This document shows positions 7,020 to 40,450 of a stretch of 64,000 bases of DNA, piece by piece. This DNA is from Mannheimia haemolytica (lineage in GTDB: Bacteria; Pseudomonadota; Gammaproteobacteria; Enterobacterales; Pasteurellaceae). The translations under genes and the position numbers were made by a program. The stretch lies in contig NZ_SMAC01000013.1 in the NCBI RefSeq assembly GCF_004342115.1, positions 1 through 64,000 of the forward strand, in the 5' to 3' direction. The notes beneath the pieces are model-generated. The model searched no databases and was not told the origin of the DNA. It saw only the letters and a program-made list of their open reading frames with translations. Position 1 is the stretch's first letter; each line of letters begins with the position of its first letter.

Positions 7020-8378
7020 TTAACCGTCCTTCTCGATCTTATCTAACGCTTGACGTAATAATGGTCCCCAGTTGTTTTTACCGGAACACACAAAAGTACA
7101 TAACGCTAAATCTTCTTCGTCTAACTCTAAGCAGCCTAAAGCTTGAGCGGAGTCTGTATCTCCAGCTGCTAAATCACGCAATAAGAGTGTTGGAATGATA
7201 TCCAACGGCATTACACGCTCATAAGCCCCTGTTGGTACCATTGCACGCTCACTACCGTGAACTGCTGTTGTGAAGTTAAATAATTTCTTCGCAAAATGCC
7301 CTAAAGTAGTACGCGTAATTGAATACTTATCAGAGTAAGGAGCAATCATACCGAAGAACGCTTTCTCACGCCCTTCTAATAAAGCAGACACTTGTAATGC
7401 GTAACGACCTAAATAGTCGTGTACTCCCGTTGCGATAGCACCACTTAACACAGAACCTGAAATGACACGGTTTTCACCCGCATTTAATTCGTTGGCTGTT
7501 AATTGTGAAAGATTCGCCCCTAAACGAGTACGCACCAAACGTGGATTTTTCACTTGTGGCCCGGCTAATGCGACTACACGGTCAGTAAATAGCTCACCGG
7601 TCGTAAATAATTTACCGATAGCAATTACATCTTGGTAATTTAAATACCAAACTTGTTTAGTTGCACCTACCGGGTCAATAAAGTGAATATGCGTACCAGA
7701 AAGACCTGCAGGGTGCGGACCTTTAAAGCGGTTAGTTTCCACATTATTGATCTGACGGCTTTGTGCCGCATTTAAAATATTTGAGTCTGCACTGCCACAG
7801 AGATGAATCACTTTTTTACTTTCAAATAAACGACTTAATACAGTTAAGCCATCAAAGAAAGCTTGTTGGTGTTCTGCAATAATCACTTCCGGATTTGCTG
7901 CAAGTGGATTGGTATCCATCGCATTGACAAAAATAGAGGAAGGTTCTGCATCTAATGCAGGCACTTTGCTAAACGGACGTGTACGGAAAGCCGTCCATAA
8001 GCCTGACTCTACAAGGTTTTGTTTTACTTGCTCTGAAGTTAATGAAGCTAATTGGCTGGCTTCATAACGAGCAAAGGTAATTTGCTCATCACCCTCAACT
8101 TTAATTACTACCGATTGAAGAACACGCTTCTCGCCACGGTTAATTGCCGTTACGGTACCACTTGCAGGGGCAGTAAATACCACGCCCGGATTCTTTTTAT
8201 CTTCAAAAAGAACCTGACCTTTCTTTACTACATCGCCTTCACGCACTTTCATTGAAGGACGCATACCCACATATTCTTCACCAAGCATAGCAACTTCAGT
8301 AACGGTATTACCGTTATGGATTACTTGCTCAGGTTTTCCCGCAATCGGAAGATCTAAGCCTTTTTTGATTGTAATCAT
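7020..8378 (-). CDS. nqrA: NqrA, cytoplasmic subunit of Na+-NQR
   Basis: NqrA (452 residues) is the soluble subunit docked on the cytoplasmic side of NqrB and implicated in quinone binding. The N-terminal [18 protein letters not shown] and the following barrel-sandwich region (about 30-100) are typical, as is the [19 protein letters not shown] segment near 220-240. It has no membrane helix. It is the first gene of the operon. A hairpin (GATTGCG/CGCAATC, 8416-8433) lies in its leader. The operon promoter should lie in the 446 bp shared with divergent nfuA. Confidence 0.97.
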
Positions 8379-8824
8379 ATTGTTTGCACTACTTTTCTTT
8401 TGGGTTAAAAAATATGATTGCGCTAACGCAATCGCTTCTATTGAGCCGCAGCTTTACTTAAAAATAAACAATGGTCCCCCACCTATTTTTAAAAGCCACA
8501 TTAAGTTCTCAAATCTGTGATCAACCTTTATCTTTTCTTAACAAAAGGTTAACTAAAAATAATCTTCTTATTTTACCTAAAAAGCTCCCCTTCTGGCTAG
8601 GAAAACCCCCTATTTTTTGCATATTCCCGCGGTAAAATTTGAAATAAATCAAGATTTCAATTCCCTCTTAACATAAATTAACCATAATTAGTTAATCCAA
8701 TTTCCCTTCAAGCGGTTAAATTTTATTAACAATTTGCAAAAATTTTTTTAGCTAGGCAATTTTGAAATTCAGGCGTAAAATAGTTGATAAATTTTGTAAA
8801 ATATTAAAAAACAGGATAATTTAA
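8379..8824. promoter_or_regulatory. Divergent nqrA/nfuA promoter region with an FNR-like site
   Basis: This AT-rich 446 bp gap has no gene on either strand. TTGAAATAAATCAA at 8639-8652 matches the FNR box TTGAT-N4-ATCAA except for one base, which would suit oxygen control of a respiratory complex. A perfect hairpin occupies 8416-8433 in the nqrA leader. TAAAAT-like -10 candidates lie just before nfuA. A lone uptake-like sequence occurs near 8709. No experimental start is known. The regulatory reading is inference. Confidence 0.4.
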
Positions 8825-9421: not shown

Positions 9422-9430
9422 AAATACTAA

Positions 9431-9458
9431 AAGGGATAAATCATTTGATTTATCCCTT
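9431..9458 (+). terminator. nfuA terminator
   Basis: AAGGGATAAATCA (9431-9443) pairs perfectly with TGATTTATCCCTT (9446-9458), then a T-rich run. It starts 10 bp after the nfuA stop codon. Confidence 0.8.
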
Positions 9459-9474
9459 TCTTATAATTAATGAG

Positions 9475-9579
9475 CAAGCGGTCAAATTTACTCGCTTTCG
9501 CTCGCACTTCGTGCCATCAGCAAAGCCGATGTTCAAACGCAAGCGTTTGTACAAAAAAATGAGTAAATTCGACCGCTTG
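9475..9579. repeat. Three-hairpin repeat (copy A) nested inside an uptake-sequence stem
   Basis: CAAGCGGTCAAATTTACTC (9475-9493) faces GAGTAAATTCGACCGCTTG (9561-9579), making a long stem at the pyrG 3' end. Its loop holds copy A of the three-hairpin repeat (9491-9552): GCAC-TTC-GTGC, then ATCAGC-AAA-GCCGAT (one mismatch), then CAAACGC-AA-GCGTTTG, with GTTCAAA joining hairpins two and three. Copies B and C lie at 35714-35775 and 37044-37100. The outer stem probably terminates pyrG. Confidence 0.75.
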
Positions 9580-9589
9580 TTAAGTTTGA

Positions 9590-15995: not shown

Positions 15996-16000
15996 ATCCG

Positions 16001-16172
16001 CATACTTAGATGGATAGTTTAGAATTTATTTCTATTCCTAAATTTTAAGTATGATGTTGTGTTTGCATATTGGTCTAGGAAACTAGACTAGAGTAACGAA
16101 AGTTACTTGTTTCACTTCCTGTATATTTTGAACCGTATTGGTTTATAACCGCCCACTTTGGGCGGTTTTTTT
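16001..16172 (+). ncRNA. gcvB: GcvB small regulatory RNA
   Basis: GcvB is an Hfq-dependent RNA that represses many amino-acid and peptide transporter mRNAs. The diagnostic G/U-rich R1 region GATGTTGTGTTTGCATATTG lies near 16052-16071, followed by TGGTCTAGGAAACTAGACTA (a hairpin). Next come AGTAACGAAAGTTACT and TTTCACTTCCTGTATATTTT, all matching the order of the enteric RNA. It ends at ACCGCCC-ACTTT-GGGCGGT plus a T run (16148-16172). The position divergent from gcvA is the conserved one. The 5' end is estimated from a promoter-like sequence. At about 170 nt it is shorter than the 206-nt E. coli RNA, mainly in the 5' part. Confidence 0.9.
16148..16172 (+). terminator. gcvB intrinsic terminator
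   Basis: A seven-base-pair GC-rich stem (ACCGCCC/GGGCGGT) with a five-base loop is followed by a run of seven T residues broken only by C. Confidence 0.9.
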
Positions 16173-16336
16173 CTATGTAAAAAAACAGCACAAAACCTAG
16201 ATCGCATTCTATATTATTCGCTACCTTTATTCTAGCCTTTCTGCTTTTTTATTCTTTCACTTTAATCTATTATAAAAAGAGGTTTTATAGTATGCTAAAG
16301 CCTATTTTTCATTTGCAATAATTACCGAGAGTTCTT

Positions 16337-35619: not shown

Positions 35620-35660
35620 CATACAAGCGGTCAGATTTTGTGAGTTTTTTGCAGATTGGC

Positions 35661-35775
35661 ACTCCCCTCTCTCTGAAAAATGTTTCTGAACGAAACATTT
35701 CCCGGTCTCAATACTCGCTACGCTCGCTCCTTCGGAGCCGTTGGCAAAGCCAACGTTCAAATGTAAACATTTGTC
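35661..35775. repeat. Intergenic repeat cluster with three-hairpin repeat (copy B)
   Basis: A partial opposite-oriented copy of the CTCTCCCTGA-type repeat (35663-35678) is followed by AAATGTTT-CTGAACG-AAACATTT. Copy B of the three-hairpin repeat then occupies 35714-35775: GCTCC-TTC-GGAGC, GTTGGC-AAA-GCCAAC, CAAATGT-AA-ACATTTG, with CGTTCAAA joining hairpins two and three. A lone uptake sequence lies at 35624-35633. The region separates convergent rsmI and the transporter gene. Confidence 0.75.
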
Positions 35776-35810
35776 CCATAAGGGGAGAGAGCTAAATTAT
35801 TCGCTTGTCG

Positions 35811-35876
35811 ACCCCTCTCCACTCGTGGGAGAGGGACAGATTCTTCTTCGTTCAGAAGAAAAATCAGGGAGAGGGG
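35811..35876. repeat. Dispersed two-hairpin repeat, copy 1
   Basis: The 66-bp segment reads CCCCTCTCC-ACTCGT-GGGAGAGGG, then TTCTTC-TTCGTTCA-GAAGAA, then ATCAGGGAGAGGG. It is nearly identical to 42551-42615. Its end overlaps the last codons and stop of the minus-strand transporter gene. Confidence 0.8.
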
Positions 35877-37030
35877 GAAGTTTCTCGCACTAAATTCCGA
35901 TAAGCATACGCCATAATCGCAAACATCAACAGCAAGTAAAGCGGTAATAATTGAATGCTGATAGCATTAGCAATAAAGCCGAAAATCGGTGGCAATAACA
36001 GGACGCCGATATAGGCACTTGCCATTTGCACGCCGATCACCGATTGAGATTTGTCCTCGCCGAAAAACGCAGGGGTCGAATGAATTAAGCACGGGAAAAT
36101 CGGGGCACAACCTAGCCCGATAATAATTAAACTTGCCAGCGTAACATATTTGCCTAACGGCAAGCACAGTATCGCAATGCCGACTAAGATCAAGGCTGAA
36201 CCAAGTTTAATCATTTGTCTGTTGCTAAATTTAAGCGTCAAGAAGCCACTTACGCCTCTGCCAACGGTAACGCCGATAAAGAAAATACTGCCGAACGCAG
36301 CCGCTTGTTCTAAGCCGACATCTTTAACCATTACAAAATAGCTACTCGCCCACAGTCCGGCGGTTTGTTCTACGCCACAATAGCCAAAAAAAGCTAAAAT
36401 GCCATATTTCACGCCCGGAATTTTTAGCGTTTCTTTTAAGCTCATCGGTTTTGCCGAATGGTTGATTTCAGCGGTAATCTGCTTGCGTAATTTCCAAAAA
36501 GGCAGTGAGCAAAACAGCATTAGCGTTAGCCCGATTTGTAACATTGAAATGGTGAAATAGCCTGCCTCCCAGCCTCGCCCTTGCAATAAGGCGTAGCCTA
36601 AAATGTGCGGCCCGATAGAAGCTCCAACGCCCCACATACAATGCAGCCAGCTCATATGGCGGCTTGCGTAGTGAACTGCTACATAGTTATTCAACGCCGC
36701 ATCAACCGCTCCAGCCCCTAAGCCGTAAGGAATTGCCCATAAACATAAGATCCAGAAAGCATCACTGATTGAAAAGCCCCACAATGCTAAAGCCGTTAAG
36801 GCAACGCTGATGACCATTACTTTGCCTGTGCCGAGATGGTAGGTCAGTTTGTCCGACATTAAGCTAGAGGTAATAGTGCCAATCGACATAATCATCGAGA
36901 CCACACCGGCATAGGAAAGCGGAACAGCAAGCTGTTGGTGCATTGACGGCCACGCCGAGCCTAAAATTGCATCAGGCAACCCAAGGCTGATAAAAGAGAG
37001 ATAAATAATAGCGAGTAGGAGGTTAGTCAT
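35864..37030 (-). CDS. Major facilitator superfamily transporter, substrate unknown
   Basis: The 388-residue protein has about 12 membrane segments. The start MTNLLLAIIYLSFISLGLPDAILGSAWP and the later LHCMWGVGASIGPHILGYALL resemble fucose-permease-like major facilitators. I cannot name a substrate. The last residues SPSP and stop are read from a dispersed repeat (35811-35876), so its original C-terminus may have been replaced. It is flanked on both sides by inverted copies of the three-hairpin repeat (35714-35775 and 37044-37100), which hints at past movement as a block. It has no operon partner. Confidence 0.8.
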   Translation of the reverse strand: MTNLLLAIIYLSFISLGLPDAILGSAWPSMHQQLAVPLSYAGVVSMIMSIGTITSSLMSDKLTYHLGTGKVMVISVALTALALWGFSISDAFWILCLWAIPYGLGAGAVDAALNNYVAVHYASRHMSWLHCMWGVGASIGPHILGYALLQGRGWEAGYFTISMLQIGLTLMLFCSLPFWKLRKQITAEINHSAKPMSLKETLKIPGVKYGILAFFGYCGVEQTAGLWASSYFVMVKDVGLEQAAAFGSIFFIGVTVGRGVSGFLTLKFSNRQMIKLGSALILVGIAILCLPLGKYVTLASLIIIGLGCAPIFPCLIHSTPAFFGEDKSQSVIGVQMASAYIGVLLLPPIFGFIANAISIQLLPLYLLLMFAIMAYAYRNLVRETSPSP

Positions 37031-37043
37031 AGCTTACAATCGG

Positions 37044-37121
37044 TCACAAAAAGCATCGCTTTTTGAACGTTGGCTCTGCCAACGGGAGCGAAGCTGTGAA
37101 CAATCCTTACAAGGATTGTGA
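37044..37121. repeat. Three-hairpin repeat (copy C, opposite orientation) plus an extra hairpin
   Basis: Read on the plus strand in reverse order: CAAAAAGC-ATC-GCTTTTTG (37047-37065), GTTGGC-TCT-GCCAAC (37069-37083), AGC-GAA-GCT (37087-37095). The TGAACG linker equals CGTTCA of copies A and B reversed. An extra hairpin ACAATCCTT-AC-AAGGATTGT (about 37100-37120) follows. Confidence 0.75.
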
Positions 37122-37151
37122 ATAATTTTTGATAAATTTTTTGTAAAAAAA

Positions 37152-40153: not shown

Positions 40154-40155
40154 AT

Positions 40156-40343
40156 AAAGACCCGAGATGCCGCTACCAGTAATGGTCCTTGAACCAGTCG
40201 GTTCAAGGGAGTCAAACTTAACTGCTTTTAGGCTTCTTACTCCTAATTAAATTAGGGTAAGCTTGCTCACCAGCGTTAGATGTCCAACTCAAAGTTTCAA
40301 ATTATCGGCTCAGGGACGTAACTCGTAACGCACACCCCAGGCA
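40156..40343 (-). ncRNA. ssrS: 6S RNA
   Basis: 6S RNA binds sigma-70 RNA polymerase in stationary phase by mimicking an open promoter. On the minus strand this segment reads GTCCCTGAGCCGATAATTTG (5' half), then GGTGAGCAAGCTTACCC. The 3' half has CTTGAACCGACTGGTTCAAG and GCGGCATCTCGGGTC, matching the E. coli RNA in order. The ends CCTGGG and CTCGGG can pair to close the rod. Its position between zapA and fau is the conserved one. Ends are estimated; length is about 188 nt. Confidence 0.92.
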
Positions 40344-40450
40344 AGACTTATAGTAACGGAATTTGATGATTTTTCCTAGTATTTAATCCCACAAAATGCA
40401 AATTCTCAATCTTTTTGGCTCTATTCCTAATCAATTCGATTAAAAATTAC

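Follow-up and report, generated by a model that had tools for sequence, protein, structure and literature searches.

A dispersed multi-hairpin repeat associated with DNA uptake sequences in Mannheimia haemolytica and its relatives

The window under study, a 64,000-nucleotide stretch of Mannheimia haemolytica DNA (positions 1 to 64,000 of contig NZ_SMAC01000013.1), contains three copies of a repeat composed of a row of hairpins (Table 1), each located where a preliminary description of the sequence had placed it (9491, 35714 and 37044) and each confirmed as lying between the ORFs of a mechanically generated list, as that description had also claimed. The commonest form of the repeat, read on strand B, is ACAAA-hairpin A-AA-hairpin B-hairpin C-GA-hairpin D-GA(G/A)TA. 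The layout previously proposed for all three copies stands in so far as they have a common row of hairpins, but copy 3 points the other way from copies 1 and 2, with the layout inverted; similarly, the three hairpins originally counted are present, but copy 3 has a fourth long hairpin (D), which in copies 1 and 2 is reduced to a 2-bp stem at most. The proposed linker GTTCAAA between hairpins 2 and 3 had to be abandoned, the linker there consisting of two bases with the remaining letters paired, and hairpin 2 of copy 1 contains one non-Watson-Crick pair. Folding as single-stranded DNA (ssDNA) compared with shuffled sequences gave z values of -2.1, -4.1 and -6.0 for copies 1, 2 and 3 respectively, the modest value for copy 1 being that of a sequence whose MFE belongs to a competing structure. 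A covariance model of the element core (R1: 54 positions and eight seed rows, one of them mistyped), seeded with copies elsewhere in the same genome and in related genomes and with no window copy among the rows, gave exactly three matches in the window at E <= 0.01. The composite palindromic repeat that carries copy 2, the ends of which are approximate, also occurs around three other loci of the same genome (L006-L008).

Table 1. Coordinates of the repeat copies, the associated uptake sequence (USS) parts and other features of the window.
Feature	Position	Strand	Details
Terminator-like hairpin preceding copy 1	9430-9459		Separate from the element
USS core GCAAGCGGT, one flank of copy 1	9474..9482	+	One mismatch to ACAAGCGGT
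Element copy 1 (short form)	9489..9550	-	RF02902 33.7 bits; R1 45.2 bits (match 9502-9550, -)
Copy 1, mini-hairpin D	9494-9501
Copy 1, hairpin C	9504-9514
Copy 1, hairpin B	9515-9531
Copy 1, hairpin A	9534-9549
USS core ACAAGCGGT, other flank of copy 1	9572..9580	-
USS core near copy 2 composite	35623..35631	+
Composite palindromic repeat carrying copy 2	35662..35791	.	CTCTC-type arms
Element copy 2 (short form)	35712..35774	-	RF02902 53.1 bits; R1 65.7 bits (match 35724-35774, -)
Second palindromic repeat, adjoining copy 2	35814-35880		CCCTCTCC...GGGAGAGGG with TTCGTTCAGAA hairpin; shares arms with the copy 2 composite; >12 further matches in relative G006 alone
USS core left of copy 3, ACAATCGGT	37036..37044	+	One mismatch; ACAAGCGGT at the element-free site of G006
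Element copy 3 (long form)	37046..37124	+	Hairpins A-B-C-D, ends ACAAA...GAATA; RF02902 85 bits; R1 68.2 bits (match 37046-37099, +)
Copy 3, long hairpin D	37100-37119
A/T-rich part of the copy 3 USS	37125..37150	+	Split from its core by copy 3
nqrA-II motif (Rfam)	8375-8552	-	Looks ordinary
GcvB (Rfam)	16000-16174	+	Looks ordinary
6S RNA (Rfam)	40155-40346	-	Looks ordinary

Contrary to the earlier statement that no name was known for the repeat, the family is present in Rfam as RF02902 (AaHKsRNA22, 'Aggregatibacter sRNA 22', classed as an sRNA), with copies 2 and 3 above its gathering cut-off of 39.8 bits and copy 1 below it. The printed RF02902 consensus (guGCgGuc|ACaaaa) opens with 'guGCgGucACaaaacgC', and thus with the closing part of AAGTGCGGT, the uptake core of Haemophilus type. 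A search of CC-licensed papers for the string AaHKsRNA returned one paper, concerned with RF02898, another family of the same series. Further copies, predicted by the preliminary description, were duly recovered by covariance-model searches: the Rfam model gave 12 matches in the window's own genome, 10-17 in each of six congeners, and at least one in 23 of 61 genomes searched, while R1 matched 86 of 140 family genomes (54 having none) with up to 41 matches per genome, and 47 in the genome G464 when searched alone. Samples drawn more widely, each including the window's own genome, yielded R1 carriers in 24 of 369 genomes from the class and 20 of 299 from the phylum, the individual matches outside the family being weak (18.7-42.8 bits, and up to 50.9 in the phylum sample). 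A pattern search supplemented by inspection by eye identified as carriers two strains of Aggregatibacter actinomycetemcomitans, A. kilianii, Haemophilus parainfluenzae, Cricetibacter osteomyelitidis and one Xanthomonadales MAG. The working copy list comprised 137 of the 146 Rfam-model matches, nine in G015, G018, G020, G026 and G030 being omitted. Both the ACAAA and GA(G/A)TA ends were present in 75 of the 94 copies from the window's genus; most copies in G464 end in GCATAA. Two loci in G464 (L305 and L309) are head-to-tail double copies in which the second begins at the end of the first, a partial copy was recorded at G004:1350416 (L219), and at L263 (G441:C1:1927701 and 1927926) the element was judged by eye to lie within an apparent tandem-repeated coding region, recurring with the coding repeat every 225 bp directly after AAGTGCGGTTG, where it may be translated in frame.

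The proposal that the stems covary across copies was borne out. In an alignment of 96 distinct rows, 17 of 20 pairs exhibited double changes and 95.9% of cells paired; there were 299 double-change cells compared with 95.9 +/- 7.9 after shuffling (none of 500 shuffles being as high), and slid controls all fell far below the true alignment, values to be read with the proviso that the alignment was fitted to the structure model, which favours covariation. The set derived from 98 sources, with L119-L130 and most copies from G006 omitted as near duplicates, and MAFFT alignments containing mixed hairpin A lengths (A2, A3) were discarded as their stems were out of register. This strong covariation upholds the earlier claim of a structured repeat with covarying stems, but covariation alone proves neither RNA nor single-strand selection: templated palindrome correction or the swapping of whole hairpins could also keep the stems paired. 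Little of the signal was RNA-specific, and the reading implied by the Rfam entry, namely a family of small regulatory RNA genes that are transcribed and whose stems are kept by selection on the RNA, can be weighed against the same data. Its credentials are the Rfam listing with two of the three window copies above the cut-off, the covariation itself, an excess of G.T over A.C cells (79 to 43 with every pair counted), and the greater stability of strand B as RNA in 83 of 94 copies; however, the G.T excess shrinks to 43 versus 35 without the one pair 137-152, and the strand asymmetry persists with DNA parameters (73 of 94). Promoter-like sites numbered none in the region of copy 1 (0.6 expected) and one near copies 2 and 3 (2.6 expected), and no clear bias in orientation relative to neighbouring genes was detected (40 versus 32 of 72 tandem contexts). 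Together with the dispersal of 10 or more matches through each congener genome, and a presence and absence that differ between close relatives, these results weaken the case for a plain sRNA family to the point where it must be considered very unlikely. The hairpin C loop was GAA or GTA in 84 of the 121 copies parsed out of 137, 16 having been missed by the regular expression and some of the parsed hairpins being wrong. C-GNA-G loops are unusually stable in DNA and would suit a single-stranded DNA element.

Comparison of orthologous sites confirmed that, for each of the window copies, one or more relatives lack the element and have a USS or USS pair in its place. The element-free site for copy 3 was located in G006, where the flanking anchors are 98% identical, and in G001-G005, with a USS present in all six; the G006 sequence at this point is ACAAGCGGTTACA-TTTCTCAAATTTTTTGCAAA, an extended and intact USS, the two parts of which are separated by the element in the window's genome (G000). 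Equivalent data for copy 1 indicated that the two cores on its flanks constitute an inverted USS pair, found alone in G006, G001 and G004, while in G002, G003 and G005 the two flanking genes are separated by other sequence. Copy 2 plus its outer palindrome is present in G006 and absent from G004, which has a USS pair at the orthologous site. Two loci filled in other congeners gave a similar picture: at L133, occupied in G005, the empty sites of G000, G001, G004 and G006 have a USS core and that of G003 has a core containing two mismatches; at L122, occupied in G004, a USS core is present at the empty sites of G000, G005 and G006, no USS core being present at the site in G001 and the G003 site being too diverged for comparison. 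The flanks keep the letters specific to each locus as far as a few bases before the junction, and empty and filled sites differed by no target duplication beyond one ambiguous A, a 1-base duplication being indistinguishable from none.

The statement in the preliminary description that the repeat is 'not an uptake sequence' is literally true, the USS core 9-mer being absent from within the element and lying outside its ends, but incomplete, as 62 of the 94 copies in the window's genus (seven genomes) abut an inward-facing ACAAGCGGT core (at most one mismatch) within 12 bp of one end; an outward-facing core within 15 bp was recorded for none of the 94. When copies were clustered by both flanks into independent loci, 40 of 66 across the seven genomes were at a USS with near-fixed spacing, the tallies of copies, loci, subtypes and classes each having been made with slightly different distance windows. 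The same criterion applied to control positions elsewhere in these loci, outside ORFs, succeeded in 1.6% of 29,510 tests. Of the 26 genus loci that fail the USS criterion, four have degenerate cores, and many of the non-USS copies lie in or beside other palindromic repeats. Cores beside hairpin A are separated from the element by exactly 1 bp in 28 of 31 cases, and those at the opposite end by 6-7 bp in 27 of 31. Relative to the native USS consensus of the window (26 exact cores: ACAAGCGGTc.aATTTt...aataTTTTGCAAA), these arrangements define two classes, U1 in which the element lies between the USS core and the first A/T tract, and U2 in which it lies between both A/T tracts in reverse orientation. 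Class follows subtype, as counted in copies rather than independent loci: the form with an 'ACAATCC' hairpin D (n = 34) contributed 28 U1 plus five degenerate U1 sites; the 'ACAAAATT' form was U2 in nine of 11 cases; and the short form (n = 35) gave 18 U2, 8 + 2 in other palindromes, seven other and no U1, with 14 genus copies fitting no subtype form. Exact cores were recorded at 15 of 31 U1 sites and 23 of 31 U2 sites (Fisher p 0.067).

Scores on a USS profile for the window's genus were 12.7 for native USSs (66 sites), -6.9 for U1 cores followed by the element and 4.0 for the same sites with the element removed (31 each). Insertion therefore breaks the USS motif in this genus, and mimicry of the motif by the element is not general. 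A different outcome was obtained with G464, the sole Haemophilus-dialect genome in the mimicry test, where 40 of 47 matches directly follow AAGTGCGGT as scored by script (39 with a 1-base gap) and two more do so by eye. Nine of these matches are identical over the 54-base core and their upstream flanks look unrelated by eye. The core plus hairpin A at 31 sites in G464 scored 14.8 on the native USS tract profile, compared with 11.3 for native USSs (61 sites, leave-one-out, at least one degenerate element copy having been counted as native) and -14.4 for random sequence. Hairpin A of this genome thus fits the A/T-tract profile, the distal half of the uptake motif, and it is these distal tracts only, and in G464, that the element itself matches.

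Another possibility is that the element is a selected bidirectional terminator or 3'-end stabiliser, found at USS pairs as they are already terminators. Copy 1 does lie between convergent genes, the long hairpin D of copy 3 is terminator-like by score, and stem-loop families containing uptake sequences have been suggested as terminators (PMC2267715). Nonetheless, a crude ORF test placed only 10 of the 94 genus copies between convergent genes, near-identical copies are found at unrelated loci, a separate terminator-like hairpin precedes copy 1, and at 22 of the 31 U1 sites a second, inverted core is lacking within ~60 bp; this explanation is considered very unlikely.

Amongst genera other than that of the window, 16 of 42 copies meet the USS rule, comprising eight Haemophilus-type U1 sites, five of Actinobacillus type and three at DUSs; the 26 failures include two L046 copies beside AAGTGCGGT that were missed by the script, and many of them were seen by eye to lie beside a hairpin of another repeat. 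The three DUS-associated copies are in Cricetibacter (G024), each flanked by an inverted pair of Neisseria-type uptake sequences (ATGCCGTCTGA...TTCAGACGGCAT), with a one-base variant in one case. The stretch of contig C6 of that genome in which they lie (L053, L054) contains 21 Neisseria-type DUSs (GCCGTCTGA) in 26 kb plus 11 Haemophilus-type USSs. A scan for copies behind CTGACAAA, aimed at the Neisseria DUS, found 11 stretches with no Neisseria among them; three were from Cricetibacter osteomyelitidis, and L200, L204 and L206 appear to be matches by chance. Outside the family, 22 of 36 weak matches (of 37 in all) have a tRNA-like 5' flank, 19 corresponding to the T-loop and three to the tRNA-Ser D-loop, labels that derive from the 5' flank alone; tRNA genes were present in 12 of 24 scanned loci, including an overlapping pair. 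Related hairpin elements are seen at T-loop or D-loop positions in tRNA-like stretches at L172, L179, L180, L196, L198 and others, with an intact gene for a tRNA of the same kind close to some of these sites. Eleven IMG/VR stretches also carry copies, flanked by Haemophilus-type USSs or by another palindrome, and judging by these sequences are provisionally taken for host or prophage-region DNA; blastn searches with copy 1 in one phage collection and with copy 3 in one plasmid collection gave no match, leaving a phage or plasmid origin without support.

The copies are therefore dispersed, polymorphic between close relatives and precisely inserted, with a target preference tied to subtype. We consider it probable that they constitute a non-autonomous mobile DNA element of ~60-90 bp, with three or four abutting hairpins and a preference for USS targets, that moves as folded single-stranded DNA. 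Movement would depend either on a trans-acting enzyme or on the single-stranded DNA step of natural transformation, the position of the target would be set by the subtype sequence, and proximity to a USS may aid the spread of the element because linked DNA is preferentially taken up. In the one Haemophilus-dialect genome, hairpin A appears to replace the USS A/T tracts, so that the USS motif would be kept in sequence. A more elaborate scheme, which we advance tentatively and consider on balance unlikely, would make the element a parasite of natural transformation that has evolved precise insertion at the boundary of core and A/T tract, where its first hairpin replaces the tracts, the uptake signal of the host still works and the element is carried into other cells; the same fold family would have switched its target to the tRNA loops of other Gammaproteobacteria and, in a single genome of the Pasteurellaceae, to pairs of Neisseria-type DUSs.

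Most weight is placed on the non-autonomous single-strand element, the main rival to which is USS-guided ectopic recombination during transformation, whereby an incoming single-stranded copy embedded in a USS would anneal through core and A/T tract and loop the element in without any transposase. Such a process would account for the exact position within the USS, for the missing target duplication, and for the same register in both USS dialects. However, the flank letters at the junctions are those of the empty site, so that conversion tracts would have to be very short, and 9-12 bp of homology is little; neither the weak relatives in tRNA-like loops outside the family nor the three G024 copies between Neisseria-type DUSs are readily accommodated, and the explanation is considered improbable, if not greatly so.

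With respect to the enzyme that a non-autonomous single-strand element would require, the leading guess is an HUH/Y1-type single-strand transposase, but no mobilising gene was found, and Y1_Tnp gave no match in the element carriers G012, G023 and G035. By hand tally, Y1_Tnp matches were present in 19 of 22 element-bearing and seven of 15 element-free family genomes (Fisher p 0.025), those three carriers being the exceptions, and G000 has three such genes. This association, plus the palindromic and mostly intergenic nature of the copies and the lack of a long target duplication, would also be expected of a REP/BIME-type element moved by a RAYT transposase. Against this, no GTAG or CGTC tag was seen by eye at the palindrome foot among the copies listed and, within the seven Y1_Tnp neighbourhoods inspected, the genes at L013-L015 and L221-L223 are flanked by their own, different palindromes, while at L220 an element copy lies about 1.1 kb from the Y1_Tnp gene without flanking it. 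Membership of the RAYT/REP group is weakened by the missing tag and by the other palindromes at most of the Y1_Tnp genes inspected, and is accordingly regarded as decidedly improbable. The palindromes at L221-L223 are arranged in rows of several (CCTAGGACG.., CAGTCGC.., GAGCTAC..), another multi-hairpin layout.

To our knowledge, no mobile element has been described for which uptake sequences are the preferred and position-exact target, and none targeting USSs was found in a literature search that covered CC-licensed papers, with the papers on intergenic dyad sequences (IDSs) outside that coverage. If the preferred reading is correct, transposition is linked to natural transformation; the insertions serve as a natural experiment revealing the parts of a USS that matter, with cores kept or lost and tracts either displaced or substituted; and a correction is due to the database entry that lists the repeats as sRNA genes. 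The existence of two subtypes with two target positions in one motif makes target choice testable.

MITEs of the ERIC and NEMIS/Correia type are short, non-coding, dispersed and foldable, properties shared by the present element; nevertheless, membership of that group is weakened by the lack of terminal inverted repeats, the ends of the element being different (ACAAA... and ...GA(G/A)TA), and by the lack of any target-site duplication of at least 2 bp between empty and filled sites. IS200/IS605-type single-strand elements insert 3' of one fixed short sequence without duplication; in the present element the position is near-fixed within a subtype (the core followed by one base) but not across subtypes or for palindrome-embedded copies, and the candidate link to a Y1 HUH transposase of that type is the association with three exceptions described above. 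The GTAGGGTGGG... REPs of H. influenzae and H. parasuis (PMC2817692) resemble the element in being short, palindromic and presumed non-autonomous, but it differs from REP/BIME repeats in having no GTAG tag, a different sequence, a row of three or four hairpins and a location in the USS, and in not flanking the Y1_Tnp genes inspected. Hin-1, Pam-1 and Nem-4, stem-loop families of H. influenzae, P. multocida and N. meningitidis respectively, contain uptake sequences (PMC2267715), and as compared by description they consist of the uptake oligonucleotide repeated rather than of an element inserted into it. The IDSs of Haemophilus influenzae, described in a later source (PMC4144887, which names Read & Farley 1997 and Read et al. 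2000) as intergenic elements said to be important for gene-locus mobility, are likewise intergenic elements of a Pasteurellaceae species; the possibility that they are the same element is the main risk to novelty. The closest known relative is RF02902 itself, which belongs to the same sequence family but is filed as an sRNA gene, as opposed to the dispersed, polymorphic and often USS-inserted repeat encountered here in many genera.
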